A DNA stretch of 38,098 nucleotides from Bdellovibrionales bacterium (lineage in GTDB: Bacteria; Bdellovibrionota; UBA1018; CAIMNF01): NCBI GenBank assembly GCA_947462765.1, contig CANHQK010000002.1, positions 1 to 38,098 of the forward strand, in the 5' to 3' direction. The notes under the pieces are model-generated. The model did no database searches. It was not told where the DNA came from and saw only the letters and a program-made list of their open reading frames with translations. Shown one piece after another: positions 2,170 to 30,507 of this stretch. The translations under genes and the position numbers were made by a program. The first letter of the stretch is position 1, and each line of letters starts with the position of its first letter.

Positions 2170-2217
2170 TCCCCGATCCGGATTGATTCTGTGCCGGCCT
2201 TGTGCGGTAATGGTGGC

Positions 2218-3012
2218 ATGAACATCGTCAATCTGATGGGTATCGTTTTTGCCGCTTTCATCATGGTATTCTCGATGGTTTTCGGAAATCCCAACCCCGG
2301 AAAAATGCTCGATGCACACGGAGCGCTCATTGTAATCGGTGGGACGCTTGCCTGTGTCGGTGTTGCGTTCTCGCTTCCCAGGGCGTTTTCCATGTTGATG
2401 ATTTTCATCAAGGGACTCTTCAAGACGACGGTTCCGAAAGACCTCAACAAAAGGATCATCGAGGAGTTGATGAAGCTCGCCGAGGCTTATCGAAGCGGCA
2501 ATCCTGAGCTCGAGAACATGGTGAAGAACAGTTCCGATCCATTCTTGCGTGAGGCGATGCAAGCCATGATGGACGAGGTGCTCGAGCCGAACAAGCTGAT
2601 CCGGGTCCTTCATGCCCGGGTGAATACCTTGTATGAGCGCTACTCCGACGACGCGAAAATGTTCGCTGCATGTGGAAAATATCCCCCGGCAATGGGTCTC
2701 ATGGGAGCGGTGACCGGAATGATCATGCTTCTCGGATCACTCGGTCAGCCCGGAGCTGAGAAAACCGTCGGCCCCAACATGTCAGTCGCTCTTGTGGCCA
2801 CACTGTACGGGATCGCTCTTGCCAATCTTTTCATCATTCCGATCGGTGAACACCTTCAGGAAATTGCCAAGAAGATGAAGCTCAAAAACACCATCATTGT
2901 TGAGGGGGTCAAGTTCATCCAGCAACGACAGAATCCCGTTGTTCTTGCAGAGGAGCTCAATTCATATCTCCTTCCCTCTGAGCGTCTCGACTGGAAGGCT
3001 ATTGGAAAATGA
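2218..3012 (+). CDS. motA: MotA-type stator protein (MotA/TolQ/ExbB family)
   Basis: 264 residues, normal MotA length. Four hydrophobic segments lie at about residues 3-22, 33-52, 157-177 and 187-209. The large cytoplasmic loop between segments 2 and 3 carries charged residues (DPFLREAMQAMMDEVLEP, 107-124), where MotA contacts the rotor protein FliG. The KYPPAMGLMGAVTGMI block (154-169) and P208 correspond to the conserved prolines of MotA. The family forms the proton or sodium channel of the stator with MotB. The ATG at 2218 is preferred to the upstream in-frame GTG at 2191 because MNIVNLMGIV matches the usual N terminus. Its stop overlaps the motB start (ATGA, 3009-3012). It lacks the long C-terminal tail of ZorA. 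Confidence 0.93.
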   Translation: MNIVNLMGIVFAAFIMVFSMVFGNPNPGKMLDAHGALIVIGGTLACVGVAFSLPRAFSMLMIFIKGLFKTTVPKDLNKRIIEELMKLAEAYRSGNPELENMVKNSSDPFLREAMQAMMDEVLEPNKLIRVLHARVNTLYERYSDDAKMFAACGKYPPAMGLMGAVTGMIMLLGSLGQPGAEKTVGPNMSVALVATLYGIALANLFIIPIGEHLQEIAKKMKLKNTIIVEGVKFIQQRQNPVVLAEELNSYLLPSERLDWKAIGK

Positions 3013-3767
3013 AGGGTCCGCACGATTCCCACGAAACCGGTGATGATGAGATCCATGTCCGCCATGCTCACGAGGAGGGCCATGGCGATGGAGGGCACGG
3101 GGAGCCCTGGCTCGTTTCCTATGCAGACATGATGACCCTGTTGTTCGGGTTTTTTGTGATCATGTACGCATTCGCTGTGGCGAAGAACGAGGACGACCCG
3201 AACATGATCAAGATCCGCAGGGAGCTTGCGGCCTATTTCGGAGGAAAATACATTGATCCATCCGAAAAGATGAACGAGAGCATCAAAAAGTTTCTCGACG
3301 TCAATCCGGATCTCAAGAAGTCCATCGAGGTCACATCCACACCGGACGGTCTCAAGATCATGATCACCAGCCAGCTCCTTTTCCAGTCGGGAAAAGCGGA
3401 TCTCGGGGACGAGGCTCGGACTCTGATCGGAAAGATCGTTCAAAGGGTCGCAGATGAGGGAAAACACTTTCAGATCCGGGTGGAAGGCTACACCGATGAC
3501 AATCCCGTCGTAAAAAGCGAGGAATTCGAGTCCAATTGGGATCTGAGTTCGGCAAGGGCGATTTCGGTTCTGCGGGTTTTCGAGGAAGCGGGTTTCCGGC
3601 CGGACCAGCTCCAAGCAACCGGATTCGGCGAAGGTCGCCCGCTCTTGCCGAATCGTGACGCAAAAGGGGTTCCGATCACTGAGAATCAATCAAAGAACCG
3701 TAGAGTCGTGATCCGGGTTCTGCCTGATTTCGTGAGTCCAGCGGCAAGTCCTGCGCCAAAAAAGTGA
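3009..3767 (+). CDS. motB: MotB-type stator protein with OmpA peptidoglycan-binding domain
   Basis: 252 residues. A His- and acid-rich cytoplasmic N terminus (1-33) is followed by EPWLVSYADMMTLLFGFFVI, which contains the single TM segment. Asp40 in SYADMMTLL aligns with the ion-binding Asp32 of E. coli MotB. A plug/linker region follows. The OmpA-like domain (about 110-240) includes RVEGYTDDNPV, a LSSARAISVLRVFEEAG helix, ATGFGEGRPL and the terminal NRRVVIRV motif. The protein should anchor the MotA channel to peptidoglycan. Translationally coupled to motA. The N terminus has six His between residues 5 and 30, which is unusual for MotB. Confident as a MotB; whether it drives a flagellum or something else is not decided by the sequence. 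Confidence 0.94.
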   Translation: MKGPHDSHETGDDEIHVRHAHEEGHGDGGHGEPWLVSYADMMTLLFGFFVIMYAFAVAKNEDDPNMIKIRRELAAYFGGKYIDPSEKMNESIKKFLDVNPDLKKSIEVTSTPDGLKIMITSQLLFQSGKADLGDEARTLIGKIVQRVADEGKHFQIRVEGYTDDNPVVKSEEFESNWDLSSARAISVLRVFEEAGFRPDQLQATGFGEGRPLLPNRDAKGVPITENQSKNRRVVIRVLPDFVSPAASPAPKK

Positions 3768-3848: not shown

Positions 3849-4523
3849 TTGGATTCAAGGCAGCGGGTTTGCATCATTGTGTTAGGAATGGCTTTCGCAG
3901 GAGCAGGGTGCTCCAGCGTGGCTTCCCTGACTTTGCAGAGCAATCCGGGCGGTGCCGAGATCTGGGTGGCTCCTCTCGACGGGACCACTCCGAAAAAGCT
4001 CGGAATCACGCCGCTTTCGACGGGCTCCGATGAGGCCCAGAAGCTCGCGGGAACTACCGGGCCCATCATGGTGGAATTCCGCAAAGACGGATACCTGGCG
4101 TCGAAGTCCATGATCACGGATTTGGTTCCGGCCGATATTGCGATCACCGCACAATTGCAACGATCGTCAGGGCTCGAGAACATCGAAGCCCTGAATGGAG
4201 TGGTGGATCGGCTGTTTGAGGCCCAGCGTCTGGTTCGGGCAGGGCGCCTGGACGATGCTCTCAAGCTCGCGGGACAGGTGGAGCGCGACGCTCCTGAGCT
4301 TTCGGCAGTGTATGAAATCCAAGGGGGGATCTACTACCTCCAGAAAAAGCCCCGTGAAGCACTCGATGCCTATCAGGTCTCGATCCGCTACAACCCGAAA
4401 AATGCGGAAGCGATCCGCATGCGGAACTACCTGATGGCCAATCTCGGTATCACCCCGCAAGATGCCACCACCCTCGCGCCGGGTGGAGCCAAAACCCCTT
4501 CGTCATCAGGGGGTAACCGATGA
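3849..4523 (+). CDS. PEGA + TPR lipoprotein
   Basis: 224 residues from a TTG start at 3849. The TTG is supported by GAGGA at 3838-3842 (6-nt spacing) and by the resulting lipoprotein signal peptide (MDSRQRVCIIVLGMAFAGAG then Cys21). Residues about 26-100 look like a PEGA domain (LQSNPGGAEIWV..., then MVEFRKDGYLASKS), a surface/envelope beta domain. Residues about 113-195 form tetratricopeptide-like helices (RLFEAQRLVRAGRLDDALKL; YYLQKKPREALDAYQVSIRY). The C-terminal tail is Pro/Ser/Gly-rich. The stop overlaps the next ATG (4520-4523). A plausible role is an outer-membrane-linked scaffold of the neighbouring motor-like complex; this is inference from context. Confidence 0.85.
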   Translation: MDSRQRVCIIVLGMAFAGAGCSSVASLTLQSNPGGAEIWVAPLDGTTPKKLGITPLSTGSDEAQKLAGTTGPIMVEFRKDGYLASKSMITDLVPADIAITAQLQRSSGLENIEALNGVVDRLFEAQRLVRAGRLDDALKLAGQVERDAPELSAVYEIQGGIYYLQKKPREALDAYQVSIRYNPKNAEAIRMRNYLMANLGITPQDATTLAPGGAKTPSSSGGNR

Positions 4524-6418
4524 AGCGACGCCTTTCTTCATGGGGTTTCCTGGCGTTGTCTCTTTTTGCCTTGAGTACCCGGGCATCAGACGAAGCCCCC
4601 CGGGTGGATCCGGAGTGGGAGCGGGTCCAACTCGAGTCCACGGTGAACGACCGTGCCAAGAGTGTGGTAGCGGCCTTCACTTCAGGGCAGCAGTTCATTG
4701 TTCAAACCACCATCACGCTGAAGCCGATAGCCAATCTTCCCGTCAAAGCGATGGCCAAAATTGAAACCGAAGGTAATGTGAAGACGGCCGAGCAGGAAGT
4801 CTCACTGAGCAAGCTCGACATGAGTGCCCCGGTCTTTGAAAAACTCATGGCCGGTCATGGGGCTCCCGGAGATGCCGAAAATGGCATTTTTGCGAGGATC
4901 CAGAAAGTCACGATCCGGGCCTCGGTTCCGGGATTTGTCATGGCCAATGGCAAAGACGGTCTCGAAAAGCAACTGACCGCCGTTGGAAAACTCACCCCAA
5001 AGACTCCGGTTTCGGTCACGGTCGAAGAATGGACCGCTCCCCGTAATCGAGAGGAGGACTCCTGGACCTGGAAACAGTGGCTCCGTGAGTTCAGAGGCGC
5101 GATCGGAGTGGTCGCTGGCAACCTGGTGGTCGCCTTGTTCCTCGTTCTCATCGGATGGCGCATCCTCGCAGCTTATCGCAGTCTGGAGTCGAAAAAGATC
5201 GCACTGATGGAAGCGGCGAATGCGCTTGAGACCGAAAAGAACAAGCCAGCCATCACCGAGATCGAGGAAACGGGGCATGTCGAGATCGAGGCCGAAAGCA
5301 AGAATCCTTACGAGTCCGAGAAGCTGGTTGAAATCGAGGGTGCTGATACAGGTTACGAGCGATTCAAGAAGTTGATGGCAACCGATCCGGAAATGGCTTC
5401 TGGCATGGTCCGCCAGTGGATCACCAGTGCCGAGAAAAACGGCCCGTTTGAAGCCCTGCTGTCATTGCCGCAATTTGTCGATCCGAAGGCTCTGATGAAT
5501 TTATTCTCATACCTCACACTGATGGAGCGCAAAGCCTGGAAGTCCATTCTGGGAGAGCGGGTGAGTGGACCTACCGCTGTCGAGGCTAAATTGGCCGATG
5601 CATTCATCTCCCGACAGATCGTCGATGCGATCATGATTCCGACTCCCGTTTCGGATGTCGAGTTCAAAGGTTTGCTCCAGACGCTCACTTTCAAGGATTG
5701 CTTCTCCCTGATCTCGAGTGAAATCGAACTCGCTCCGGCCCTGATCAATTTCCTGCCTACCGCGATTGTCAGCCGGGTATACGCACTATTGCCACAGGAA
5801 CAGGCTGATCAAATCACCTTGCTCAGTGTGAAAATGAAGGAGTCCGAAATCCAAGCCAAGGTCGAGACCTTGAAGCAGAAGGTCAGGGACCTCGCCTCGG
5901 GTAAGACTGTGATCTCAGGCACTCCTTTCGTCGAGAATATCGCCGAGCTGTTGAGAACGGTGTCAGGCGAAAAAGAAAAGAGTATCTGGAATGCCTTGAT
6001 CGAGGCACGTGAGGTATCGGTGATCCGAGGGGCCGCATTGAAGGTATTCCCGGCTCACCTGATACTTAAGCTCAAACCGGGAGTTCTAAAGCAAGCGATC
6101 GACCGTTTCAATACGGTCAAAAAAGCGGAATTCATTTATTTGCAGTCTGAGCAGGACCGTAAGTTCTATCTCGAGATTTGTGGTAAAGAGGGCTCCAAGG
6201 TTCGTGACATGATCGAGTACGAGTTGAATCAGATTCCTTCCAATGAGATACGTAAACAGAAAGTCATGAAACAGGCCGGTCTTTTGCAGCGGGAATACCA
6301 GGATATCATCCGTGGTCTCGTTGTGACCGATGATGCGGTCAGGGAAGCTGCGGACGAAATCGTCAAGGAATGGATCGGACAGGTCGTTCCAGAGGAATCC
6401 TTTGCTCAGGCTGCTTAA
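4520..6418 (+). CDS. Inner-membrane protein with FliF-like C-terminal motif followed by a FliG-like region
   Basis: 632 residues. Signal peptide or N-terminal TM at 1-22, an unfamiliar periplasmic domain (about 23-185), a TM at about 193-213, an acidic cytoplasmic linker (225-275), then alpha-helical sequence to the end. Residues 281-302 (FKKLMATDPEMASGMVRQWI) match the FliG-binding tail of FliF, which in Salmonella reads DNDPRVVALVIRQWMSN near the C terminus. Residues about 392-430 (LISSEIELAPALINFLPTAI, then VSRVYALLPQEQAD) resemble the FliG middle domain pattern (LL..EHPQ.IALIL..L....V...LP.E). It could therefore be an MS-ring-like anchor fused to a switch-like segment. Sequence likeness is read by eye only; no ring-building motif of FliF was recognised. 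Tightly coupled to both neighbours. Confidence 0.55.
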   Translation: MKRRLSSWGFLALSLFALSTRASDEAPRVDPEWERVQLESTVNDRAKSVVAAFTSGQQFIVQTTITLKPIANLPVKAMAKIETEGNVKTAEQEVSLSKLDMSAPVFEKLMAGHGAPGDAENGIFARIQKVTIRASVPGFVMANGKDGLEKQLTAVGKLTPKTPVSVTVEEWTAPRNREEDSWTWKQWLREFRGAIGVVAGNLVVALFLVLIGWRILAAYRSLESKKIALMEAANALETEKNKPAITEIEETGHVEIEAESKNPYESEKLVEIEGADTGYERFKKLMATDPEMASGMVRQWITSAEKNGPFEALLSLPQFVDPKALMNLFSYLTLMERKAWKSILGERVSGPTAVEAKLADAFISRQIVDAIMIPTPVSDVEFKGLLQTLTFKDCFSLISSEIELAPALINFLPTAIVSRVYALLPQEQADQITLLSVKMKESEIQAKVETLKQKVRDLASGKTVISGTPFVENIAELLRTVSGEKEKSIWNALIEAREVSVIRGAALKVFPAHLILKLKPGVLKQAIDRFNTVKKAEFIYLQSEQDRKFYLEICGKEGSKVRDMIEYELNQIPSNEIRKQKVMKQAGLLQREYQDIIRGLVVTDDAVREAADEIVKEWIGQVVPEESFAQAA

Positions 6419-7010
6419 TCTCTTTCTGGCGCTTTCTTCCTTTTTCTGGACCGTACCGGCCTCTTTCTCGTCAGATGATTTCCGTGACCGCCAGTTGCAT
6501 TTCAGGAGTGCGCTTTTGACCACCAATGTGTTCGGAGGGTCGATTTCAAGGAGTTACAGTGTGGCCAATACGGTCGATCTCGAATACGAGACCTTCAATC
6601 ATTCGAAGGCCTCCACTGTTTTCCGTGGAACGATCGCACACAGTCTCGAATTGGGTAGAACGGTTTATGCGTTCATGGGACTCGGGCGCAGATTCTATTT
6701 CGGCTCGACCGGGATCTCGGTGAAGACTGCGGGAAATGGTTTCGAAGTCGATCATATCCCGAAGAGACGTTACTATTATGGTGCCGACCTCGGTTATTCA
6801 TCCGGAGTCATTTCGGTACTCAAGGGGACGCCTCTCCAAACCGTGACTTCCATGATTGATTTCGGGGGTGTGGTAGGGATGCTCTACCAGCTTTCGCGTT
6901 CAAACGCCATTGAGGCCCAGTTCGGGATGAGCTTCGGATACGGTTTTTCCGGTGTTGCTGCGGCGGCTCAGACCACCCGGATGTTGATTGGATTTGCACA
7001 TAGCTTTTGA
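6402..7010 (+). CDS. Small outer-membrane beta-barrel-like protein
   Basis: The TTG at 6402 is chosen. AGAGGA lies at 6391-6396 with 5-nt spacing, and the product then begins with a signal peptide (LRLLNLFLALSSFFWTVPAS). The longer frame back to 6330 would lie inside the previous gene and start with a charged non-signal sequence. The mature part (about 180 residues) alternates hydrophobic and polar residues in short strands with many Gly, Tyr and Phe, and ends in HSF. A C-terminal Phe is typical of Bam-assembled barrels. It overlaps the upstream gene by 17 bp, so it belongs to the same operon. No specific family recognised. It could be the outer-membrane part of the local complex (inference). 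Confidence 0.7.
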   Translation: MLRLLNLFLALSSFFWTVPASFSSDDFRDRQLHFRSALLTTNVFGGSISRSYSVANTVDLEYETFNHSKASTVFRGTIAHSLELGRTVYAFMGLGRRFYFGSTGISVKTAGNGFEVDHIPKRRYYYGADLGYSSGVISVLKGTPLQTVTSMIDFGGVVGMLYQLSRSNAIEAQFGMSFGYGFSGVAAAAQTTRMLIGFAHSF

Positions 7011-7028: not shown

Positions 7029-8075
7029 ATGTCCAAAACGTCGCGCCTGATCCTGGCATCGTTAGTCCTTTTTTTTGGAATCGCTGCGGTATTGATGAAA
7101 GACCGTCTGATCTGGTCCTCCCGGCGGGAGTCATTTGAGACCCAACGAGAAGCCCAGCGTGAGGCTGATCGGAGCATTCTTTTCGCCCGTGACAATCGGG
7201 ACTCCACTTCGCTTTACGGGGCTTTGATCCGTGTGTCCTTGAACCCCGGTGAAGATATCCGGAAGCGGGTTCTTGAGTTGGTCGGTTCGAGTGACGTCCG
7301 GGTGCGTGCCGGTGTTGCGTTTTTCTTGTCTGGTCAGAAAGGCAGTGCCGAGATCGATGCCTTGAAAAAGCTCATGAAGGATCCTGAGTCGATGGTCCGG
7401 ACCCATATTGCAAGAGGCTTCAACCATCACGCGGGTCCTGACCGTGCCCCCCTGATCCGTGAATTCCTCTCGGTCGCAGTCATGGAAGACGCTGATCGGG
7501 TTCAGGCATTTTCGGCCTTGTTCCGTTCCCAGACCGCTCGTGCCGAGCAGGATGTATCGCTGCAGACCATTGTCGATTTCGCAAAACAGGAGAAAAACCC
7601 CGACCTGGCCCAGTGGGCTTTGCTCGAACTCTGCAATCTCGCACCCCAAGACTCCCGGGTGATCGATTTGCTGCGGAAGGCGATCCAGAAGAAGCAAAAA
7701 GTGGTGACCCCCATCGCGATCAGGACTCTGGCCGTGAGGCGGGATGCCTGGCTACAGGAAACCATTGAAAAATGGATTTTCGATTCCGATCCAGAAATCA
7801 AGCGTTCAGGGGTCGATTCCTTGTTGTTCCTCTGCCCCGTCAATCGATGGACTCTGATCGAGAAGGGATTCAGGGAGGCCAAGGATCTGCGCGAAAAGAA
7901 AGAGGTTTGGTTGGCGCAAGCCGAGCGGATGCCGGGCAAGGAAGCCGCGGAGTTCTATCAAAAATTACTCGATGGATTGAAGGACAAAAGTCCACCTGAA
8001 TTCAGTGAGATCCGCGCCTCATGGGCCCGGATGCAGGAGTCGAAGGTCAAGGATCCATGCGCAAAAGTGAAGTAG
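7029..8075 (+). CDS. Membrane-anchored HEAT-repeat protein
   Basis: 348 residues. One N-terminal hydrophobic segment (about 6-23) and few charged residues before it suggest a signal anchor. The remainder is helical with HEAT-like repeats, for example SSDVRVRAGVAFFLSGQ, DPESMVRTHIARGF and DPEIKRSGVDSLLFL, each with the D-x-x-[VI]-R pattern. HEAT arrays are protein-binding scaffolds. The gene starts 18 bp after the barrel-like gene and is the last of the plus-strand run. Its 3' end overlaps the convergent gene by 29 bp (8047-8075). The specific partner is unknown. Confidence 0.75.
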   Translation: MSKTSRLILASLVLFFGIAAVLMKDRLIWSSRRESFETQREAQREADRSILFARDNRDSTSLYGALIRVSLNPGEDIRKRVLELVGSSDVRVRAGVAFFLSGQKGSAEIDALKKLMKDPESMVRTHIARGFNHHAGPDRAPLIREFLSVAVMEDADRVQAFSALFRSQTARAEQDVSLQTIVDFAKQEKNPDLAQWALLELCNLAPQDSRVIDLLRKAIQKKQKVVTPIAIRTLAVRRDAWLQETIEKWIFDSDPEIKRSGVDSLLFLCPVNRWTLIEKGFREAKDLREKKEVWLAQAERMPGKEAAEFYQKLLDGLKDKSPPEFSEIRASWARMQESKVKDPCAKVK

Positions 8076-8913
8076 ATCCGTCCTGAAATACAGATTGGAG
8101 TCCTTCTGATTTTTCAGACCAGTATACCCGCACCGGCTTCGGGTTCGATGGGAGTCGAATGGGCCCTTCGACCAAAGACGCCGGTCCCACCGCTGCGGGC
8201 TCTCTAAAAACCGAGACTTGCGACTGGCTGAGAGACACCATTGCCATCATTTTTTTGTGTGAGACCCAAGTGAAGGCCTCGATCGAGTCCGCATCGGTCA
8301 TCGGGATGGAAAAAGAGCGGCTCCATTTCGGTACAAGGGTCCGGTCTTTCCCTCCGTGTAGGGAGCCAATTCCCATGATTTTGACCGTTTTTTCTTCGGG
8401 AAACCAGAGGGCGACCTCCTCCCCGGCGCGATCCACCTGGATCAGGCTCGCGCCAGAGAGCTCCGGACCTGCGTACACCCGGATCGGTGAGAGATTTCCA
8501 CCGTATCTCGAGATGAAGACCCTCAAGTCTTTCGAGCCGTCCTCTTGACGATTCAATATCCAGACTTCCTTACGGGTCGGAGAGAGCGCGATGCTCTCGA
8601 CCGCGTTCAATCCAGTATTCGGCCCGGAGATGAAATCGTATTTGTCAGTCCCTGTATGCGAAACGAGGCTCACCAGATTCTGAAAGCCGGCTGCGCTGAA
8701 TTTTTCGTAAGGGGAGGTGGTGGATTGGCTGGCTGGAGCGCGATTGAAAACGGCCTGGGCGCAAGTCCGATCCAATCCGCGCGCGGAGACGCCGGCCCCG
8801 AGAGATGCCCCACGCTTGGCGCAGTCTACCGCTTCCTCACTCGAGGCCCACGGGCTAAGAGCCAGGAAGAACCCCAACCACCCTGCGCGGGAAATAGAAG
8901 AAAACACCTTCAC
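8047..8913 (-). CDS. Secreted protein of unknown function
   Basis: 288 residues from a GTG at 8913; a second in-frame GTG at 8907 has the better SD spacing (GCGAGG, 5 nt) and may be the true start. A signal peptide (SISRAGWLGFFLALSPWASS) leads to a mature protein with short repeated beta segments such as AVESIALSPTRKEVWILNRQ and EEVALWFPEEKTVKIM. These look like the strands of a beta-propeller (inference). Three Cys occur near the mature N terminus. It lies 28 bp after the OmpA-like gene and is probably the last gene of the three-gene minus operon headed by the FliG-like gene. Confidence 0.65.
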   Translation of the reverse strand: MKVFSSISRAGWLGFFLALSPWASSEEAVDCAKRGASLGAGVSARGLDRTCAQAVFNRAPASQSTTSPYEKFSAAGFQNLVSLVSHTGTDKYDFISGPNTGLNAVESIALSPTRKEVWILNRQEDGSKDLRVFISRYGGNLSPIRVYAGPELSGASLIQVDRAGEEVALWFPEEKTVKIMGIGSLHGGKDRTLVPKWSRSFSIPMTDADSIEAFTWVSHKKMMAMVSLSQSQVSVFREPAAVGPASLVEGPIRLPSNPKPVRVYWSEKSEGLQSVFQDGSTSLLRMDP

Positions 8914-8941: not shown

Positions 8942-9862
8942 TCATGAATGTGTCCCCCATGACCCGGAGTGGATCCGAATGATCGCCTTTCGTCCCAGAC
9001 GTTCATCGGCGCCCTTGCCGGTGGCTTTGAATTCAACTGAATCGAAGGATCCGGAGCGTTTCAGTGCCCGCACCAGGGCCTCGGCCCGGGTCTGGGTCAA
9101 TTTTCGATGAAACCGCAGATTGGAGCTGTCTCGTGCGGATCCGCCCGGAATCACCGAGTGGATCTCGATCTCGACCCGACGGATGGTTTTCGGTGAATGA
9201 TTGGACAGATTGCGTTCAGCTTTTTTGAAAAAGGCTGAATTCAACCTGAGGGATTCCCCGTCGAATCCATCGGTGGCATCGAGTGTCACCACGGTCGCAG
9301 GGCCGCTTTTCCCGGCTGGACTCCTGCTACTGGAGAGGCTTGCTTGGACCCCTGACACCATTCGGTCGATCACCTGACGGGTGTGAAAAGCGGACCAATC
9401 CCCGATTGTCCTAGCTTGAAACATCAGTGCCATGAAAGCCACAACCAAAATTCCCTTTTTGAAAGAGAACGACTCCGGCGCCAGGTCGCGCACCGAGCTC
9501 GAGTCGATTTCAATGGATTTGTCGAGTAGTGGTGTGGAGGGTGCGGGGGCGGGGTCGTGAACGGGGGGTGTGGCTTTTTTACGTTTTGATCCGCTTCCCG
9601 GGCTCGGGAGTTGTCGCTCAAGAGTTTGGATCAGTTGGATGATCTCGAGATTCTGCCGCTCGATCTGTTCGATCTTGTTTTGGATCAACTTACGCGATCT
9701 CGGGGTGAGTTTCGGATTTTCCAACTCGGATTCGAGCTCCACCAGAAGCGCCGACTTGGCCATGACCAACTGTTCGAGGGGTTTCAGCTTTCTTAATTGC
9801 TCGACTTCCCGAGGGTAGGGGCTTCTCTTCGGTTTCTGGGAACGTGTCTCGGTCTTCATCAT
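8942..9862 (-). CDS. Coiled-coil / TM / OmpA-like protein
   Basis: 306 residues. An N-terminal cytoplasmic coiled coil (about 17-85, with LEQLVMAKSALLVELESELE and later helices) is followed by a Pro-rich linker and one TM (about 136-150, GILVVAFMALMFQA). The C-terminal periplasmic domain (about 188-298) resembles OmpA/MotB. It has a conserved-looking NLRFHRKLTQTRAEALVRAL helix (compare NxxLSxxRAxxV), then FKATGKGADE and RKAIIRI. Unlike MotB it has no Asp in the TM, so it is not an ion-conducting subunit; a peptidoglycan anchor is more likely. The start overlaps the stop of the FliG-like gene (ATGA at 9859-9862). A second ATG at 9859 is also possible. Confidence 0.7.
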   Translation of the reverse strand: MMKTETRSQKPKRSPYPREVEQLRKLKPLEQLVMAKSALLVELESELENPKLTPRSRKLIQNKIEQIERQNLEIIQLIQTLERQLPSPGSGSKRKKATPPVHDPAPAPSTPLLDKSIEIDSSSVRDLAPESFSFKKGILVVAFMALMFQARTIGDWSAFHTRQVIDRMVSGVQASLSSSRSPAGKSGPATVVTLDATDGFDGESLRLNSAFFKKAERNLSNHSPKTIRRVEIEIHSVIPGGSARDSSNLRFHRKLTQTRAEALVRALKRSGSFDSVEFKATGKGADERLGRKAIIRIHSGSWGTHS

Positions 9863-10635
9863 TCCACCTCGCTTTGCATGGATTCTTGTCTGAGAATGCT
9901 TTGGAGTCGCTCCGAAAGCGCGGGATCGACTTCCGAGAGAAGCGCAGTGATCCGATCCTCAATCTCGGCCTCCCGGGACCGGATCATGGAAAAAGTTTCA
10001 ACGGCTTCTTCGACTAACTCGGCTGAGATCGCTGTCGGAGTCTCATGGGTAGCTGTATCGAAGAGTGTCCCTGAGGAGTCGAGAGCCAGACGGACTCGGT
10101 TGGAGAATCCTCGTCCGGTGACCCGAACCGAATCGGCCGGAAGCTTCTTCAGTCGCTCCATGGCGAGAATGAATGAACGTCGCTTCTCCGGAGAAAGGCC
10201 TTTAGCCAAACCCAGAGTTTCTTCCGGATTCCAGAAAAGTGAGATCAGAGCCCACTCTTCGGGTTCGAAGCGCCGGAGCAGATCCGATTTAACAGAGGGT
10301 TCACACTGTCGGAGAAAATCAAAGGGATCCTCAAAATCAGAGTGGGACTCTTCCCATGTCAGTTCCATGGCGGTGATGGACTGGATCATCCATTTGGCCG
10401 TTTCGATGGAGTCCGCTGAAGGATCGGCTGCCGACCGGATCGTGCGCCACTGTTCTGACGGGATCCAATCCATCATGAGTTCGGCCACATCAGCTCCTAA
10501 TAGGCTTGAAATTGAAGCCATTTTTCTCATTCCTTCGGAGGAGCGCGTGCACTGTAGCGTCAGATTTCGACACATTCCTGGCTTGTCGTGAAGGAGTTCG
10601 ATGATCTTCGTTTTCATTTTTTCGGATGGATTCAT
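9859..10635 (-). CDS. Divergent FliG-like protein
   Basis: 258 residues. Residues 103-166 (DPFDFLRQCEPSVKSDLLRR, then EPEEWALISLFWNPEETLGL, then KGLSPEKRRSFILAMERLKK) follow the FliG middle-domain layout: P-F-x-F-L-R-x-x-D-P, L-L-x-x-E-x-P-Q-x-I-A-L-I-L, then L-P-x-x-R. Residues about 38-70 (MASISSLLGADVAELMMDWI) recall the FliG N-terminal helix pair. The EHPQ motif is not kept (FEPEE). The FliG C-terminal torque domain with its charged ridge was not recognised; the C-terminal third is acidic and helical. FliG is normally 330-340 residues. First gene of a minus-strand operon, divergent from the giant lipoprotein gene. Identification is by eye, moderate confidence. Confidence 0.55.
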   Translation of the reverse strand: MNPSEKMKTKIIELLHDKPGMCRNLTLQCTRSSEGMRKMASISSLLGADVAELMMDWIPSEQWRTIRSAADPSADSIETAKWMIQSITAMELTWEESHSDFEDPFDFLRQCEPSVKSDLLRRFEPEEWALISLFWNPEETLGLAKGLSPEKRRSFILAMERLKKLPADSVRVTGRGFSNRVRLALDSSGTLFDTATHETPTAISAELVEEAVETFSMIRSREAEIEDRITALLSEVDPALSERLQSILRQESMQSEVE

Positions 10636-10779: not shown

Positions 10780-13700
10780 TTGGGCCTTGGTTCTATGTTG
10801 CGTAATTTAGTGAAAGCGACTGCTGCACTTTGTCTGGGTGTGGTGTTGTCTTCGTGTACGCAAAGTCTCGACTCCATCCTTGCAGGGGACTTCGGTCTGA
10901 AACTCGAGATGGTTCGAGGGAATGATCAAGTGGCTCCGGATGTCGGTGTGCAGTTCATCGATCCCATCACCGTGCGCATGATGGCGCCGGACGGGACACC
11001 GCTACAAGGCATTGAAATTCAATTCACTCTGGATCCCCCCGAGTCTTCGGCCACGATTCTCACTCCTTCGGCATTCACCGATCCGAATGGATTTGCGGTG
11101 GCCTCTGTGCTTTCGCCTCGTGAATACAACAAACAGTTCAAGCTCATTGCCCGCGCTGCAGGATCTTCGCTGACCCGGGTGTTCGATCTGGCTTCACCCG
11201 ATTCTTCCGGGACTCTCAAGTTCTCTTTGAACACGACCAATGGCATGACCGAAGTCGCCGGAAGGCCCTTTGGTTTCATCATCCGGGCCCTCACCCCGAA
11301 GAACGAGCTGGAGCCGGGTTATGAAGGCAATGTGACCCTCGTGTGGAACCAGCTGGCCCAGCCGTCATGGGGCGGTAAAGCACCCAACCTTCCCGTCGGG
11401 AACATCGATTGTCAGTTTGTCGGAGGAGTCTGTTACACCCCGATCATTTACACGGCAAATGACACCCTCTACGAAACCAAGTTGTGGGTCGGGATGCCTC
11501 CCGGTGTTCCGGGACCGGCGGCAGTCGCTGCAAAATTATTGACCGTTCTTCCTGGGACTCCGGATCATCTCGCTCTGGCAAACAAAAAAGGCGGACCGAA
11601 GGGTCTGAATGGCACTCTGGAGAGTTCTCCCGGCGCAGTTGGCGGAGATGATGCGACCTCTTACGTTTCGATCAAAACTAACGCCGATCAGCCGGATATC
11701 GAACTTTATCCGGCGATTGTGGACGAAGCCGGAAATTATTTCGAGGATGCTTCGATCACCAACCTCGAGATCACGAGTACCTCCAGCTTCCTGCAGTCCC
11801 CTTATGTCACGAAGCTCAGTGAATCTTTTTTGCTGAAAACTCAAAAAAGCGGAAACGGCCTGATGACCCCCCAGGACGGTTCGGGGAACTACCAGGCGAG
11901 CGATGTGTCGGTCATGATCAACCCGGGTGCACCGGCGAAGATCGCGATCGAGACCACTCACAATGGAATCGAATCTCCGGGAGTGCCCTTCGCCATCAAT
12001 CTCCAGGTTCAGGATCAAAAAGGGAATGTGATTGACCGCTCATTCGACACGGGACGCGGAGACTACACCGGTATTTTTCCCGTGACGGTGAGTTTCAGCA
12101 ACGCTTACCGGAATACCCTGAATCCGATTGCTAAGGCCTTCGGTCAGGAAGAATGTCGCGCGGGAACCATCCTGAGGGGCTGGAGCCCGACGAATACCGG
12201 AATTCCCGGACTCGGCTTGCCCTGGGCTCACACCTGGGAGGTGGCGAACAAGCCGGAGTCCGTGAAATGCGGGACGTTCACACATCCCGTCCAGTTCCTG
12301 TTCGGAAATGCGATCAACATGGAATTGTTTCCCTACATTCTCGATGCCGAGCAACCCGGTCGGAAGCCGATCCTGACCGTCAGTTCTGCAGGCTTTGGTG
12401 ACATCCCCGCCGTGACGGGGTCCATCGAGCTGACGGTCCCACAGGGGCCTCCGGTCATGTGGGCAGGATACAGAGCCTTGAATGCCACCAACCCGAACGG
12501 ACTCCTGTGTATGCCCTCATCGATGTACAACAATGGAGGGAGCACCACCAGTTGCAACATCGGTCCGCCTTTCAAAGTTCCGAACACCAGTGACTGCCAG
12601 GATCCGGTCTCAGGCCAGTACCCCAACGGGTGCAGCGTGCTTCCTGCTGGTGGAACGCCACAATCATTTTACATTGGCGCTCTGGACTACGGTGGAAACT
12701 TCCTGAATTGGGAGCACATCCCCGACAGCTCAATTGCATACGGTTCTGTACCGTCAGGCAATTCGGACCTGGTCCACGTCCAAGAGATGGTGAACGGGAG
12801 TCCCGTGACCAAGTTCACTCACATTCCGACCCGTCTGGGTTTGCACCGTGCCATCATCGATCCCCTTCTTCCGGTTTACCCCACTCCAGACCCCAGACCA
12901 CAATTTGTCACAAACGATTGGGTGCCCACCTTTACGCAAGGAGTCCGGGCAGTCACGGGGCCGGCCGAAGTGAGCACCTACAAGTTGCACTTTGTGCAAC
13001 GTGAGGGTCTGACTCAGATGATCGATGCGACCGAGCCCTTCGGGATCATTCTCGAAGCCTACGATCGTTTCGGAAACCGCACCTTGGCGCCGGACGAGAC
13101 TTCCTTGAATTTCAGTGTGAGTGGAGTGGGGCCATCGCCTAAGGGTACGGCCCCGGTGATGCCGGCCAACGGTGTCTATGAGTCAGGTTCTTATTTCGGT
13201 TTTTCCAAGGTGTTCTATGTTCCGGGTGTTCGCTTTGCGCGGGCGGGTGATAACTTTGCCGTACAGGTCACGGACGGAGCGGGTCGAATTTCAGAGCGGA
13301 AGTTCGCGTATGTGGTACCGGGTGTTTTTTCGACCGTGACGCTTCGGGCCGGGCCTCTTAGTTCATCGCAAAACCTTGCCAATTTCGATTTCTCGATCAA
13401 CACGGATGCGCCCGTGCAGTACTACGCCTCGGGAGCGGATACGGAGTTGAACCTGACCTCTGCTCAGCCCTCATTCACGTATCAATTCACTTCTGACAAC
13501 ACCGCAACCGCCGAGCTCGTCGATGCCGGCTCGTCCGTGGTGTTTGCACCGATTAAAGTCGGTACCGGGGTTTTGAAGGTGGTCGGAACCTGGTCCCAGA
13601 ACGATGTGGTGTACAACGCCGAGGTTTCAACCGGAACCATCACGATTGTTCCCGGGAATCTCAGAAAATTCGTGTTGACCTCGACGAACAACGGAGTGGA

Positions 13701-16700
13701 GACCGCCGGTGTGCCGTTTGGATTTCAAATCGAGGTCAAGGACCTGAAAGATAACCTGGTCAGCGACTACAATCGCACCTTGAATCTGAATTGGACCATT
13801 CCGGCCATTGTGTCCTGGGATGGCAATCGTGCCGTTCTGCCCAATGGCTTGGTCCCTTGCACATTTGTCAGTGGAGTCTGTCAGACCCCGAACACTTACC
13901 GTCTCATGGCAGAGTCTCAAGGGACCTACATTTACATGAGCGGGAATGACCCTGCCGTCCAGCCGGTGATTAGCCAAACCATCGAGGTGTTGCGTGGCGG
14001 CCCCGCCAAGCTTCGCTTTGCCACCGGCTTCGGGGGGCCTGCTGCCGGAGCGCGCTCGTTCAGTTACACGACCGACATCTGGGGTAATCTGGTGGCCCGT
14101 TCCGAGGAGACGGCTACTGCAGATGAGCCCAGTCGCCAGTTCTTCGGAGCCATTGTGGATGAAGGCGGGAACTACCTCTCCGACGCAACCGGGTTGAGTT
14201 GGACCGGGTCCGCCACCTATATTTCTGATTATTTGACGTCAAATCCAGACGGCACGGCCACTCATATTCCGACGAAAACCGGTTCTGCCGGAACCCTGAG
14301 TATGAGTAAGGCGGGATTAGAAGGTCATACCATCCTGTACTATGTTTTTCCGGGAGCACCCAATCGCCTGGTGGTGAACACCGAGCATAATAATATCGAA
14401 GCAGCAGGGGTACCTTTCACGATTCAAGTCTCAGCCGTGGACCAAAAGGGAAATATCCTCGCGGGAGGCTCCAGCGGGGGAGGAGCATTCACGGGGGCAT
14501 TCACGACCCAGCTCGAAATGAACAACGAGATTCCACCCTATCCTGTCAGTGGGGGCTGTGCGTTTATTCAAGAACGGGGGAATCTCTACGCGGCACCTTG
14601 CAATCAGCCGGTCATCAGTCCGGTGGGTTTCATCAACGGGACTCCTAGTTCTCCTGATACTGCGGTGATTTACGCTGCCAATGATCTCAATGCTCTTTAC
14701 AACCAGGACCCATCCTATGTTCCGACCATCACGGTCACCACACAGGCTGCGAATGGCTTTCCGTCCTTGAGCGGAACCTCACCGCCCATCCTGGTGACCC
14801 GTGGGGCGCCTCACCATATCATGCTCAAATCCGATCCGGGACCCATGAGTACTTTCAGGTGTGAGGGCGACCAAGTCAGTGCGATCGAGCCCTGCACCGC
14901 CCTCAAAGTCGTGGCCGGGGTCGCTCCGACCGAGCACTATGCCGTGCTTCAGGATCGGGGCGGGAACTATATTTCCGATCTTCCAAACGCGGTGTTCACG
15001 CCCTCCGGCGCCTGGGCTGGCTCCGGGCAGTGGACCCCGGTCACAGGATCACCGGGTAGGCGAGTGCGCTTCACTCCCATCTTGGCAGGGAATGGAACCA
15101 TCACGGTTTCGGGAGCCGGGATTTCAAGTTTTTATAATGGTGAGACAGCTCCAGCGCCTCTCAAGAGTTTCTCGATCACCCTGAGTGACGGAGTCAATGC
15201 GCAAAATATTTTGGATGTCACGAGGCCCCTGACCTTAACGATTCAAGCGCGCGACGTGACGAACAATAATCTGATCGGATACAATGATCCGAATCATCCT
15301 CTGCAGATTGTGATCAAGCGGAACGGAGTGGTCCAACCCCCGAGTACCTCACCGCTTGGAACGAACCCGGTTGTCCCGGCCAACGGCAATTACGATTTTG
15401 ACTCCGGGATGGTCACGATCAACAACCTTCGGATCCCGAATGCTTCGGATACGATTTCCATTCAGGTGATCGACGGAAATAATTCCGAGATCGTGAGCAA
15501 CATCCTCGTGCCCACCTTGAAGCTCGGAGCGCCAGCTTCGATCGCCATCCGGGATGCTGCCGGAGGACTCGGTAATGCGCTCGTTGATTCGACCAACCCA
15601 GCCGGCGCTTTGAACCCCAATTACTCGGTTGATTTGCCGGTAACCTTCCACCTTGCGGTTTACGATGCGGAACGGAACTACTTCCCGACCACTGAACTAG
15701 GAGTGTGGAGCGGGACCCTCGGGGCGCTCGAACTCTCAACTTTCTCTCCGACGCTCGGAAGTCCTTCCGCTTCCATGCAGTACTTTCCGTACCGTTCGGG
15801 GAGCGGATTTCTCGAGGTCAGCTATGGGGGAATCACCGCTCGCACCGGAACGATCACCATGCGTCCCGGGGAGTTTCGCGAGATCATTGCCGACCTGAAC
15901 GGGCTTCCTTCGCCACTGATCGCCGGAACCACCTACCCCTTGAAAATGCAGTTGGTCGATCGTTATTACAACGTGCTCGACGCTCTTTCTTCCGGAAACC
16001 AGACTTTGAACTTGCAGTTTAGCGCCATGGGGGCTTTTCAGACCGTATACGGTTACGGAGCCACCATTCCCCCGGATGGCAATTATGCGTTTATCAACGG
16101 GACCGTCGCACTCGGGGGAGTGGTAGGGGTCTTTCCGACCTTCACTTTCTTCGGGGCGGGTAATCCCATGATGGTTCCGGTCGTCTTGGGTGGCGGAAAT
16201 CAGCGGGGAATGATTGCATTGACGGTCCGCAATGCTCCCGCGGATCACTTTTTTATCCGTCCGGCCAATACTGCGGTGAATGCCGGAAGCAACATGAGCT
16301 TCACGGTCGCCGTCAATGATTTCTACGGGAACCCTGTCACCTATGATGCCGGTTCGAATGTGGCGTCGAACGGTCTCGTGACCGTCGGTTTTTCGAGTTC
16401 CTTGACCGGACAGAGTATCGTCAGCACCTCGCTTTCGGGTGCCACCGCTCTGCCAAGCTCATCCAGCGTGACCGGGCGCCTAAGCGGGGGAACTGCACAG
16501 GTCACCGTCAGATCGAACCAGTCCGGGCAGTTGGCTCTCGGAATCTCAGGGAACGGGTTTACTCTCGCTCAGACCCGGAGTGATAACCTGAACGGAGTCA
16601 CCGTTTTACCCTTGTCCACCATCGCCGGAATCAAGTTTTCGAACGGATTCACGCCGGCATCCGTCTATCAGGCGAGTGCCAGCAGTCCGATGTCCCTTTT

Positions 16701-19700
16701 CCGGGCCGAGCTGAATGACATCTACGGCAACGTGATCACGAGCAACAGCTCGGCGTCGATCACGCTTCAGCTCATCCAGGGAACAAACGGGGCCTTTCTC
16801 GGAACTCGAACCCAGGGGGTGAATCAAGGGATCGCTTCATTCAACGATATCCGGCACACCAAAGCGGAAGAGATCCTGATCCGGGCCACTGAGAGCGCTT
16901 CAGGATTCTCAACCTCGGACAGTGCCATCACCGTCACTGCGGGACCTGTAGTCCAGGCCCTGACCGTGCTTCCCGGGCAAACCTTCAACGAAGGGGTGAG
17001 CAGTCTCGCTCTCGCCGTGACCGGTACAGCACTCAATCAGAATGCGGGAGTGCCCTTTGATTTCAATATTCGCGCAGTGGATTCGTGCTTCAATGTCGCC
17101 GCTAATTACGGTGCGGATGTCAGACCCCTAATCAATGATTCGCGAGTCGAAACTTACCTGACTCGCCCCGAGATGACCTCGGTTCCGGTCGCAACCGTGA
17201 CTCAGTTCGTTTCGGGATCCCGGGATTTCAGGATCACTCCGCTCAGCATGAGTTCTTCTGCCCGGATCACCCCGGCGACCGGCCTCTCGAATATTCCCTC
17301 GGCAACTTTCGTGGTCTCTCCGGGAAATTTGAACCGGCTGGTGGTGGTCGGACCCACACCGAGCCCGAGTCCCGGCCCGCTGGCCGTCGAGGCGGGGACT
17401 TGCCTCGGGCCTTTCAATGTTTTTTCCCAGGATGACTTCGGTAACAATCTGCCTCTTCCATCGGCCCATGTAGTGAACTTGAGCTCGAGTCTCGGGCAAT
17501 TCTACGCGAGTAGCGACACCACTTGTACGGGAACCACCCTCAATTCCGTGACACTGCCATCCGGTGGGTTCGCCGCATCCTTCCGGTTCCGCTCGACGGT
17601 GTCGGGGTCCACCACGCTCACCCTGACCGATACCGGAACCGATCCCGTGACACTCCTTTCGGGCACATACGCATTGACGATCAACCCTTCGACTCCCGTG
17701 AAGCTCGGGTTCTTGGGACCCTTCCCGAGCGGGTCGGTTACTGCAGGGAGCGCTCTTTCTCCCGCGATTCAAGTTGCCGTGCAGGATACCTTCAACAATA
17801 CGGTTCCCACCGCAACGGGCTTTGTCTGGATCGATCGGGATACTGGCCCCGGAGACAGTTTCTTGATGGGGAATACCTACATGCCGCTGGTGAACGGAGT
17901 GGCGACCTTCAGCGGGGTGAGTCTGTTCCGAGTGGGAGCCCACACTTTGCGCGCCTCGGGATCCGGCGGAACGGTGAGTGGACTCACGATGGCCCGATCC
18001 AGTACCAGTCCTGCATCCACCGCTCCGAATACCATCACGGTCACGGTCGGACCCCCTTCCAAATTGCGGGTGCTCCGGAACATCCAGACCGAGTACTCTG
18101 CGACGCCCGGGCAGTATGTCGCCCAGTCAGCCGGGGTGATCCTCCAGGATGCGATTGACTCTTCCTATAGTTCGAATCCGACCGGGAACTTCATTCAATT
18201 CGCCATCACTGACAATTTCGACAACGTGATCACGACCGACAACTCGACCCAGGTCACGCTTCAGTTGTCGTCGAATCCGACTGGAGCGGTTCTTCAGGGC
18301 ACGACGATCAGGCCGACGGTGAACGGTGTCGCGACCTTCAACGATATCCGCCTCGATCGGGCGGCCACTGCGACCTACCGGATTGTCGGAACCACCGCAT
18401 CAGGTTATACGGCTCAAACTTCGAGCTTTTTTGTTTATCCCGCTCCGGCCGTCAAGCTCGGGTTTTCGTCGTTCCCGAACGGGAATGCACAAGTGGTCGG
18501 TACTTGCGGGTCGGCCATCACGATTTCGACTCAGGATACCTTCAATAATAACTCTCCTACCGCCATGCCGCGGACTCTGAATCTTTCCGCCTCCGGGATC
18601 GGTGGGACTTTTTATTCCACCTCTTCGTGTTCGAACGGCACTGAGCTAACCTCCGTTTCGTTGCCGTACGGGACCTCTTCTGCAACGGTTTATTTCAAAG
18701 CCAATTATTCCAATTCGACCTCCACTCCGGTAGTCAACATCGGAGTGACCGATACTTCGGCCTCTCCTTTTACAGCGATCACTCAAGGGCTCACCATCAC
18801 GCAAGACTCACCTGTGAAGCTGGTCTGGACCACTCAGCCCCAGTCGGTATTGGCCGGATCCGCCATCACCACCCAGGTTGCGATCATGGATCAGTACGAC
18901 AACATCGTGAACTCCTCGGGTGCCTCGATCACCATTGACTTCAGCTCGAATCCCGCGGGAGCCACGTTGGGAGGTCTCCGGACGATCAACGCCTCAGGTG
19001 GCGTCGCAACTTTTTACAGTACGATCACGAAGTCGAACACAGGTCTCGGATCTTATCGTTTCGTGGCGAGTTCGAGCGGGTTACCCAACCAGCTTTCGAA
19101 TGCTTTTGATGTGGGCTATCAGGGCGCCAGCAAGTTGGTGTTCTTCCAACAGCCCACGAACGCAGTGGCGGGTGTGAATATCAACCCTGCGATCGTGGTC
19201 CAGGTCCAGGATAACTTCGACAATATCGTCGCCAACAACTCCTCGACCGTTACGCTCCGGATTCCGACCGGCACCTACCAGACCTTCGGAGCATCGGCCA
19301 GTACCGTGACGGCTTCCGCATCAGCCGGTGTTGCGACCTTCTCCGGGGTCAATATCCGGAGGATCGGAACTTATACCCTCCAGGCGTCGATTGATAGCAC
19401 AGGAGTAACTGGAACCAGTTCTTCATTCCAGATCTCTCCCGACACTCCGACCAAGCTCGTGATCACCGGAGGGGCGTCGATCACCGCAGGCGCTTGTGCC
19501 GGTTTATATGATGTGACGGTGCAGGACCAGTATTCGAACCCGAGCCCCGTGGCTTCAGTTCTCAATGTGGGGCTGACTGGAGGCGGAGCCGGTGCATTCT
19601 TCGGTGGCAACGATCTCTCCTGCTCAAGTCCCTTGAGTTCGGTCTCGATCGGGGCAGGGGCTTCGGTTGCATCCTTCCGTTATCGATCCACACTTGCGAA

Positions 19701-22700
19701 TGTCACCAATACCTATGTGGGTACCGGTTCCGGCCTGACCCAGGGAAGTCTTGCGGTGGCCGTGGTTCCCGATGCCGCCTCTCAGCTTTCGATTTCGACG
19801 CAAATGAATTCGAATGCCGACTTTGCAGCGGGAACGAATCTGAACTCCACGAGTGGGATATTGGTAAGGATCGAAGACCAATTCGGAAACCTGCGCACGG
19901 GTGACACTACTTCGATTTCGGCAGCCATTGAAACAGGGTTCAATCCGGGAAGCTCGACCTTGTCCGGCACGACTCCGAGAGCAGCTGTTGCCGGGGTGGC
20001 CACCTTCAACAATCTGACCTTGAATAAAGTCGGTAGCGGATACAGGTTGCGCTTCAGTGGGGTGGGATCCGGGATCGTCTCGAATGCCTTCAATATCATT
20101 CCTGCTGGTGCTTCGAGATTGTCGTTTGTCCAGCAACCGAGCAATGCGGTTTCAGTGGTATCAATGAGCCCTTCAGTGACCGTTGAAGTCACGGATGCTT
20201 TCGGGAACCGCATCACGAGCGGGACCGGCTCGAATTCGACGGTCTCGCTCGCGTTTGCCACCGGAGGCAATCCGGGTTGGACTAGCACTTCTGCGACCGG
20301 TGGTTCGGGAACCGGTGGAGGCACCTTAAGCGGTGGTGCTTCGGTGAGTGCCGTGAATGGCTTGGCGACTTTTTCTGCAGTGAGTGTGAACCGGACCGGG
20401 ACTGGCTATAAACTGACTGCAAGTTCGGGTTCGAGCTATACGGCTGCTGATAGCTCGACCTTCAATATCAGCGCTGCCGCGCCCACAAAACTTGCTTTCA
20501 TCGCGCCCACGACTTCGATCGTAGCCGGGGTTTGTACTGCCTACGTCGTACAGTCGCAGGACGCCCAAAATAACATGTCGGCTCCGGGGTCTGCGACCAC
20601 CGTCGGTCTCAGCGCCACAAACGGCACCTTCTGGTCAGATGCGGGTTGTACCAGTTCGATTTCGAGTGTTTCCTTGAGTCCTGGCGCTGCTACGGCTACC
20701 TTCTATTTCAGACGGAACCTGGTCGGAACCGATTCCATTTCGATCACCAGTACTTCCGGTACTTCGCTCACCGGAAGCTCTTCCGGCTCGATCTCTGTCA
20801 CTCCAGCCGGGTACAGTCTTGCGGATAGCACGGTGTCAGTTTCTGCATCCACACTTGCTTCGGGGGCCTCGGCCGATGGGGGAACCCCGATCACCGTCAC
20901 ACTGACTCCGAGAGACGCCTTCGGGAACTTGAATCCGACCGGAATCGCAGGGCCCTCGGATATCGCATTTACGACCGCGGCGAATACCACCGGAACCGGC
21001 ACTTTTGGCGCAATCTCTGGAAGCGGGGGAGGCGCTTATACGGCCACCTACACCGGAGTGCTGGTCGGGGGAGCCACGATCGGAGCGACCATCAAGAGCG
21101 CCACAGTGACCTCGACTCAAGCGGTGACGATCACGCACGGGAACGCCTTCACGCTTTCCTTCGCGGCGAGTGCGCTGGGGGCTGTCGAGCCTTCGACTTC
21201 GGGGGATGCCGACACCGCACTCTCGACCCAGCCGAGGGTGGTTGTGCTCGACAAAGCCGGGAACCGAGTTCTCGGTGGAGCGACGATGCCTGCGAATGTG
21301 ACCCTTTCACTCGCTTCAAACAGCACCTGTTCCACAGCCGTGGCCAATACCTTGAACAGTACGCCCGCAGTCTCGAATGGAACGGCGAGTGTGTCCACCG
21401 GGCTTGCGACAGCGAGCGGCTTGATCATCCGCCACGCAGCGAGCGGGCTTTATCTCAGGGCCGCGAGCGGGGGCCTCACCGGTTGCTCATCGAGTCCGAT
21501 CACCATTGCTCCGGGTGCATTCAGTCTCTCGCAAAGCTCCATTGCCACTCCTGCTAACGTGGCCTCAGGATCGAACGTTTCAGTGGATCTGGTCACCCGA
21601 GATGCCTACGGCAACCTGAACCCGAGCGGAATCAGTACGGTCGCCTTGAATTATACCTCGAGTAATGGCGGGACGGGCTCGTTCGGAGCCGTTCAAGCCA
21701 ATACGCCCTCTGCCGGGACCAACCGCTCCGCATTTACAGGCAACCTGGTGGGAGTCATTACGCCATCGGCCACCATTAACGGGAGTGCGATCACTTCAAC
21801 ACTTCCGACCTTCAATGTGACTCCGGGACCGTATTCCACTTCCACCAGCGTGCTCTCGCTTTCTTCTTCCACGGTGTCTTCGGGATCCACCGTGACCGTG
21901 ACTCTGACGCCACGGGATGCAGCTGGAAACTATAGTCCGACCGGCATATCGACGATGTCTCAGGTGGGATTCACTTCGACCGGACCCGGTACAGGAAATT
22001 TTGCCGCAGCAACCGCCGGGACGGATGGCAACGGTCGGGCGATCATCACCTCGACTTTCACCGGGGTGCTTTCCGGTGCAACGACCATCGGCGCGACTTT
22101 TGCCACCACCAATGTGTTCACTTCGACCCAGGGACTGACGGTGACATTCGGTGGTGCGAACCGCTTGGCCTTCACCACCCAGCCTTCTGCAACCGGAGTG
22201 GCGGGGGCGGTTCTCGCCCAGCAACCGGTGGTGACAGTGCGGGATGCAGCGGGTAACACCGTCACCAATAGCTCAGTTGCGGTCGCTCTCGAGCTCCATA
22301 GCAGTGCGACTTGCAACTCACAGATTACCGCTACTCCAGACACCACCTTGCCCATGAGTGTCAGTGGAACCCCTGTGGCGAGTCCTTCGGTCAATGCCTC
22401 ATCCGGTGTCGCGACCTTCGCCAATCTGGCCGTCAATCAGGCCTCTTCCACACTTTATCTGAAAGCCAGCTCAGGAAGCCTCGGGACCTCGTGTACCTCG
22501 CTGATGAATATTTCCCCGGGTCCGTTCAGCCTCTCGAAGAGTTTGATCACAGCCTCGGGAAGCACGGTCCAGTCGACTCAGAACCTGACCTTCACCTTGA
22601 CTGCTCGGGATGCTTTCGGAAACGCGAGTCCGAGTGGAATCACGGCTGTGGCGTTCGGTGTGACGTCCTCGAACGGCGGAACTGGAACGGTAGGAGCCAC

Positions 22701-28863: not shown

Positions 28864-30507
<1,644 letters not shown>

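Follow-up and report, generated by a model that had tools for sequence, protein, structure and literature searches.

A distant FliG relative encoded beside a MotAB-linked gene of a putative FliF-FliG-like rotor in Bdellovibrionota

Introduction

Both FliG and FliF are commonly regarded as hallmarks of the flagellum. The gliding motors AglRQS-Glt of Myxococcus and GldLM of Bacteroidota are proton-motor-driven machines that move surface adhesins; they are powered by TolQR-like or GldLM energizers, and we know of no FliG/FliF-type rotor in either of them. In the flagellar motor, the positions of FliG that face MotA belong to the pairs R90/D288-D289 and E98/R281 (PMC12505986). Engineered FliF-FliG fusions are reported to form rings (PMC6079021; PMC11481574). 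Here, we describe a gene cluster from the genome of a predator-type bacterium of the Bdellovibrionota in which a protein with features of both FliF and FliG is encoded together with a MotA/MotB pair, and in which a second, smaller FliG relative is encoded on the opposite strand.

Results

The features of the cluster are collected in Table 1; the window is the whole stretch of DNA that was analysed (38,098 nucleotides).

Table 1. Features of the cluster, with positions in the window
Feature	Position	Strand	Length (aa)	Characteristics
MotA	2191-3012	+		Stator subunit; true start at Met10, about 2218, suggested by alignment
MotB	3009-3767	+		Stator subunit; ion-binding Asp40, intact OmpA-type peptidoglycan-binding domain
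PEGA/TPR lipoprotein	3849-4523	+		PEGA assigned by eye, TPR part by Pfam
Rotor-like protein	4520-6418	+	632	Signal peptide, FliF RBM3-like periplasmic domain, TM 193-211, FliG-like M/C region
Small outer-membrane beta-barrel	6330-7010	+		Predicted (by eye); recurrent beside rotor gene
HEAT-repeat protein	7029-8075	+		Membrane-anchored
Exported protein	8047-8913	-		Fold unknown; third gene on the strand of FliG258; conserved in genomes G003 and G036
Partner 306	8942-9862	-	306	Conserved helical segment towards the N-terminus (about 20-90); one TM (about 132-150); periplasmic end OmpA-like but degenerate
FliG258	9859-10635	-	258	Soluble, FliG N/M-like, without FliG_C; C-terminal long helix 205-257
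Surface lipoprotein	10780-27252	+	5,490	Predicted; Ig-like repeats, lipoprotein-type signal, single reading frame

The MotA/MotB pair of the cluster contains both family domains and shares with its flagellar counterparts all family features, i.e., Asp40, the plug and the peptidoglycan-binding domain of MotB. It differs from them in that it is gene-linked to a rotor of its own, and in that related pairs are present in assemblies without detected flagellar genes. The MotB also matches models of ZorB (3e-20), but the MotA has no ZorA match and neither ZorC/D nor ZorE was matched; a role in Zorya defence was therefore rejected. In nearly all loci of the same type as the window (version 1, see below), the rotor gene is immediately preceded by that of the PEGA/TPR lipoprotein, and the MotAB-rotor modules are repeatedly accompanied by giant surface proteins with repeats. 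Farther downstream in the window, the Cpn60 chaperonin gene (28873-30507) is accompanied by an open frame of almost full length (535 aa) on the opposite strand, which is presumably an effect of composition.

The product of 4520-6418 is itself a FliF-FliG-like rotor protein with a torque helix and with its own MotA/MotB, which had been overlooked in the earlier note on this DNA. The profile of its family (17 members aligned) identified FliG as the first match in PDB (3ajc, 9.7e-9), followed by a weak match to FliF (0.06). A Foldseek search with the AF2 model of this protein (mean pLDDT 67.7) placed FliG chains at 13 of the top 14 ranks (1-12 and 14), and then the chains of the FliF MS-ring/RBM3 with a probability of about 0.9. 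The periplasmic domain resembles FliF in structure, and its resemblance in sequence is marginal (hhalign 5-7%, profile E 0.06). With FliF, this protein appears to have in common a periplasmic domain of ring-building type followed by a transmembrane segment and a FliG-like cytoplasmic part, but it contains no recognised RBM1 or RBM2 and has a signal peptide and a single further transmembrane segment. With FliG, it shares the M and C regions including the torque helix, although it is membrane-bound and encoded outside the flagellar operon. In the joint alignment, an acidic residue occupies the position of FliG D289 in all 29 rotor-type proteins, and in the version-1 rotors this residue is E in 17 of 17, with K or R at the position of R281 likewise in 17 of 17. 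The protein is thus a natural FliF-FliG-like fusion in which the charges of the torque helix are kept.

Scanning of genome contigs with MotA to collect module loci revealed that a rotor-like gene is paired with MotAB in three versions across Bdellovibrionota. Version 1 is that of the window, version 2 occurs in contig C4 of the same genome (G000) and in Bdellovibrio Tiberius, and version 3 in contig C11 of the same genome. The version-1 rotor is homologous to the version-2 protein over 509 columns (98%, E 4e-15); the version-2 family (575-580 aa in B. bacteriovorus) matches FliG in PDB (1lkv) at 1.9e-25, and its members pass the Pfam cut-offs of FliG_M and FliG_C. A MotA gene is present at a distance of up to 7 kb from the rotor gene in 17 of 21 version-1, 6 of 7 version-2 and 6 of 6 version-3 informative loci, counts that include close relatives, so that not all of these loci are independent. 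Version-1 rotors were found in 66 of 369 genomes, representing 40 genera, and four version-1 loci are without nearby MotAB. In the MotA tree, in which the MotA of the window is represented by its 83%-identical G003 orthologue, stand-alone MotA proteins form a clade from which the rotor-linked ones are separated (support 98/99), although a few other stand-alone, long-branch MotA proteins are placed among the latter. Our search of the literature, for the most part limited to papers outside subscription, yielded no description of a module of MotAB and a FliG-like rotor; the module has the appearance of a variant of the MotAB rotary motor that is widespread and as yet undescribed.

Certain loci depart from this scheme or add to it. 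A version-1 rotor subtype of 707-714 aa, encoded at loci L062-L065 (genomes G096, G107, G104 and G110), is adjoined by PEGA and other genes and has no MotAB within about 6.5 kb. At L071:5475-6506 (G000:C4), the version-2 rotor is adjoined by a protein of 343 aa that has homology to its periplasmic half and contains no FliG part, i.e., by a second FliF-like ring protein. Between the rotor and MotA genes of version-3 clusters outside the source genome, a cyclic-nucleotide-binding protein (cNMP, E 1.3e-20) is encoded (L128:6601-7113 and equivalents), possibly a control input.

FliG258 and partner 306 are products of two real genes of the minus strand, which overlap by 4 bp (ATGA) and are translationally coupled, in agreement with the proposal of the earlier note that a FliG-like protein is encoded here together with a transmembrane partner. 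With the single proteins of the window as queries, searches of Pfam, NCBIfam and, by phmmer, PDB recognised no FliG, and the FliG kinship of FliG258 becomes clear only when relatives are added to the search. The four best PDB matches of the profile of the four-member FliG258 family are all FliG (1lkv, E 4.2e-5; 3ajc, 4.5e-4), and the family member of genome G036 passes the cut-off of Pfam FliG_M (E 4.6e-7, 30.4 bits vs. 25), which bears out the FliG-M layout read earlier from the sequence. In profile comparison, FliG258 aligns with the FliG-like half of the version-2 rotor family with 99% probability (E 7e-18), whereas its probability of match to the version-1 rotor family is far lower (17%). 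Direct hhalign comparison with a local FliG set gave 4.7%, probably because the sequences of this set are near-identical. In the Foldseek search with the AF2 model (mean pLDDT 77.5, based on 3 sequences), the first eight matches are FliG chains, each with a weak E-value (0.16-1.0). Judged from these comparisons, FliG258 is a true but distant relative of FliG.

The armadillo-type N/M layout is what FliG258 shares with FliG. It differs from FliG in that, by our reading of the sequence, FEPE stands in place of the EHPQ motif, and in that FliG_C is absent: the homology to the FliG-like family covers only residues 6-183 and ends near residue 183-190, while residues 205-257 are modelled as one long helix. 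Both losses had been anticipated. FliG258 is encoded outside the flagellar genes, whereas the true FliG of relatives (L080, L081) is encoded in a FliF-FliG-FliH-FliI operon. Among 369 genomes of the phylum, four encode a stand-alone FliG258 (E about 1e-110 or better); large membrane rotor-like proteins follow only from E 1e-23 onwards. All four of these genomes encode a version-1 rotor, and the distance between the genes of FliG258 and the rotor is 3.4-5.7 kb in the three informative ones (3/3). The tie between the pair and the 4520-6418 product, at which the earlier note had hinted, is supported.

The part of partner 306 that is conserved is its cytoplasmic, helical and charged segment only, which the earlier note had taken for a coiled coil. 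No Asp is present within its transmembrane segment 132-150, as had been noted for the ion-binding Asp of MotB. The claim of a periplasmic OmpA fold did not hold: the match of this end in Pfam is weak (E 0.22, 12.4 bits vs. a cut-off of 27.2), and in our own reading against the MotB of the cluster other residues stand in place of T-D and N of the peptidoglycan-binding motif, with only Arg left. The G003 orthologue (136 aa) stops after the transmembrane segment and has no OmpA-like domain, while in G036 the FliG258 homologue is overlapped at its end by a frame that comprises the helical segment only; the pairwise E-value of this frame to partner 306 is modest (4e-4), and it is its position, rather than this value, that persuades. 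The gene order of the pair is kept in three genomes. Since the conserved part of the partner is cytoplasmic, and the OmpA-like end is degenerate here and absent from both other copies, the suggestion that the pair links a cytoplasmic ring to the cell wall is not supported, and we rejected the idea that partner 306 binds directly to the cell wall.

Discussion

It is, in our judgement, rather probable that the FliG258 pair is part of a MotAB-powered rotary motor that is independent of the flagellum, with the 632 aa protein as the rotor, FliG258 as an accessory and surface movement as the output. This reading draws on homologies, gene order and linkage, residue conservation, and distribution, the latter including assemblies without detected flagellar genes. 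In such a motor, MotA/MotB (2191-3767) would be the stator. In the rotor, the periplasmic FliF RBM3-like domain would be responsible for ring formation, and the FliG-like M/C region on the cytoplasmic side would present the charged torque helix to MotA and thereby presumably be rotated. FliG258, devoid of a torque helix, would most likely pack onto the cytoplasmic FliG-like layer of the rotor as an accessory or regulatory layer (a spacer, a brake or a clutch), and the helix of partner 306 may hold it at the membrane. Packing onto a version-1 rotor is a guess, because FliG258 bears more resemblance to the rotors of version 2 than to the version-1 rotor next to it. The output would pass via the PEGA lipoprotein and the outer-membrane barrel to the giant Ig-like surface protein, and may result in surface movement (gliding) or in movement of the adhesin.

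Alternatively, MotAB and the rotor-like proteins may be parts of the flagellum, namely, extra stators and C-ring accessories, with FliG258 as a variant subunit of the C-ring. Consistent with this, the source genome is flagellated (it encodes FliI, FlhA, FliM and flagellins), as are most of the rotor-bearing genomes; with regard to the flagellum INDEPENDENCE, FlhA is encoded in 68 of the 78 genomes tested, most of which are rotor-bearing. Moreover, the literature assigns every MotAB pair of Bdellovibrio to the flagellar stators and lists two copies of FliG among the rotor proteins (PMC3539863; PMC11323537). From its place on the map, the version-2 pair of Bdellovibrio may correspond to motA2/motB2 (Bd3021/Bd3020), which has hitherto been described as a flagellar stator (PMC11323537). 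However, MotAB-rotor clusters are present in both G173 (94% complete) and G082 (89%), the former with three version-1 rotor matches, and in neither of these assemblies did we find a match to FlhA, FliM or flagellin; as both are drafts, the absence of flagellar genes is probable rather than proven. Rotor-linked MotAB pairs are thus not confined to assemblies with detected flagellar genes. The separation of the rotor-linked MotA group from the stand-alone MotA, as well as the membrane ring domain of the rotor itself, which a flagellar accessory would not need, also argue against the flagellar assignment, and we regard it as unlikely. Since the source genome is flagellated, cross-talk between the proposed motor and the flagellum is possible.

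Still less likely, in our opinion, is an envelope energizer, in which MotAB and the FliG-like membrane protein would provide ExbBD/TolQR-like force for the export or display of the giant surface protein without continuous rotation. The recurrence of giant surface proteins beside the modules, together with the PEGA lipoprotein and the outer-membrane barrel, could be explained in this way. In contrast, the MotA of the cluster matches flagellar MotA models far better than those of TolQ/ExbB, the MotB contains the MotB plug and peptidoglycan-binding domains, and the torque helix of FliG, which ExbBD/TolQR systems do not use, is conserved.

In the case of a rotary motor, gliding is an attractive but unproven output, suggested by the giant surface proteins and by a review of 2026, in which the gliding machinery of Bdellovibrio is described as unidentified, and the identification of motor, adhesins and force transmission as a major open challenge (PMC13104615). 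The clusters provide a named candidate for each of these three, and as the candidates are present also in a cultured strain of B. bacteriovorus (Tiberius), the question of the gliding motor is open to gene deletion. We put forward only tentatively the possibility of a third kind of envelope-spanning rotary machine, distinct from the flagellum and from the Agl/Gld gliding motors, in which MotAB turns a ring of FliF-FliG fusions that moves giant outer-membrane adhesins, and which would be the missing gliding motor, FliG258 and its partner forming a torque-less FliG layer that serves as a clutch or for the control of direction. If true, a MotAB-powered FliF-FliG fusion in assemblies without detected flagellar genes would show that the core that generates torque can exist by itself, a point of relevance to the origin or the reduction of the flagellar motor. 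The interest of the locus lies mainly in this motor, rather than in the FliG258 pair.

It is improbable that FliG258 and its partner represent a lineage-specific offshoot in decay that no longer has a role, as their occurrence in few genomes, with identity of 30% or lower, and the shortened partner in G003 and G036 might indicate, given that the frames are open in four genomes, the order of the pair is the same in three, and invariant residues remain. Within the motor reading, the pair looks like a new, narrow accessory of the MotAB-rotor variant, and its presence in only 4 of 369 genomes indicates that FliG258 is no core part. A protein that complements FliG258, i.e., has the torque domain without N/M, is encoded elsewhere in the source genome: the stand-alone FliG_C protein of 141 aa at L072:3824-4249 (G000:C6:3824-4249; 97 bits vs. 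a cut-off of 23). Similar frames of 130-170 aa that comprise only FliG_C are present in many genomes of the phylum.
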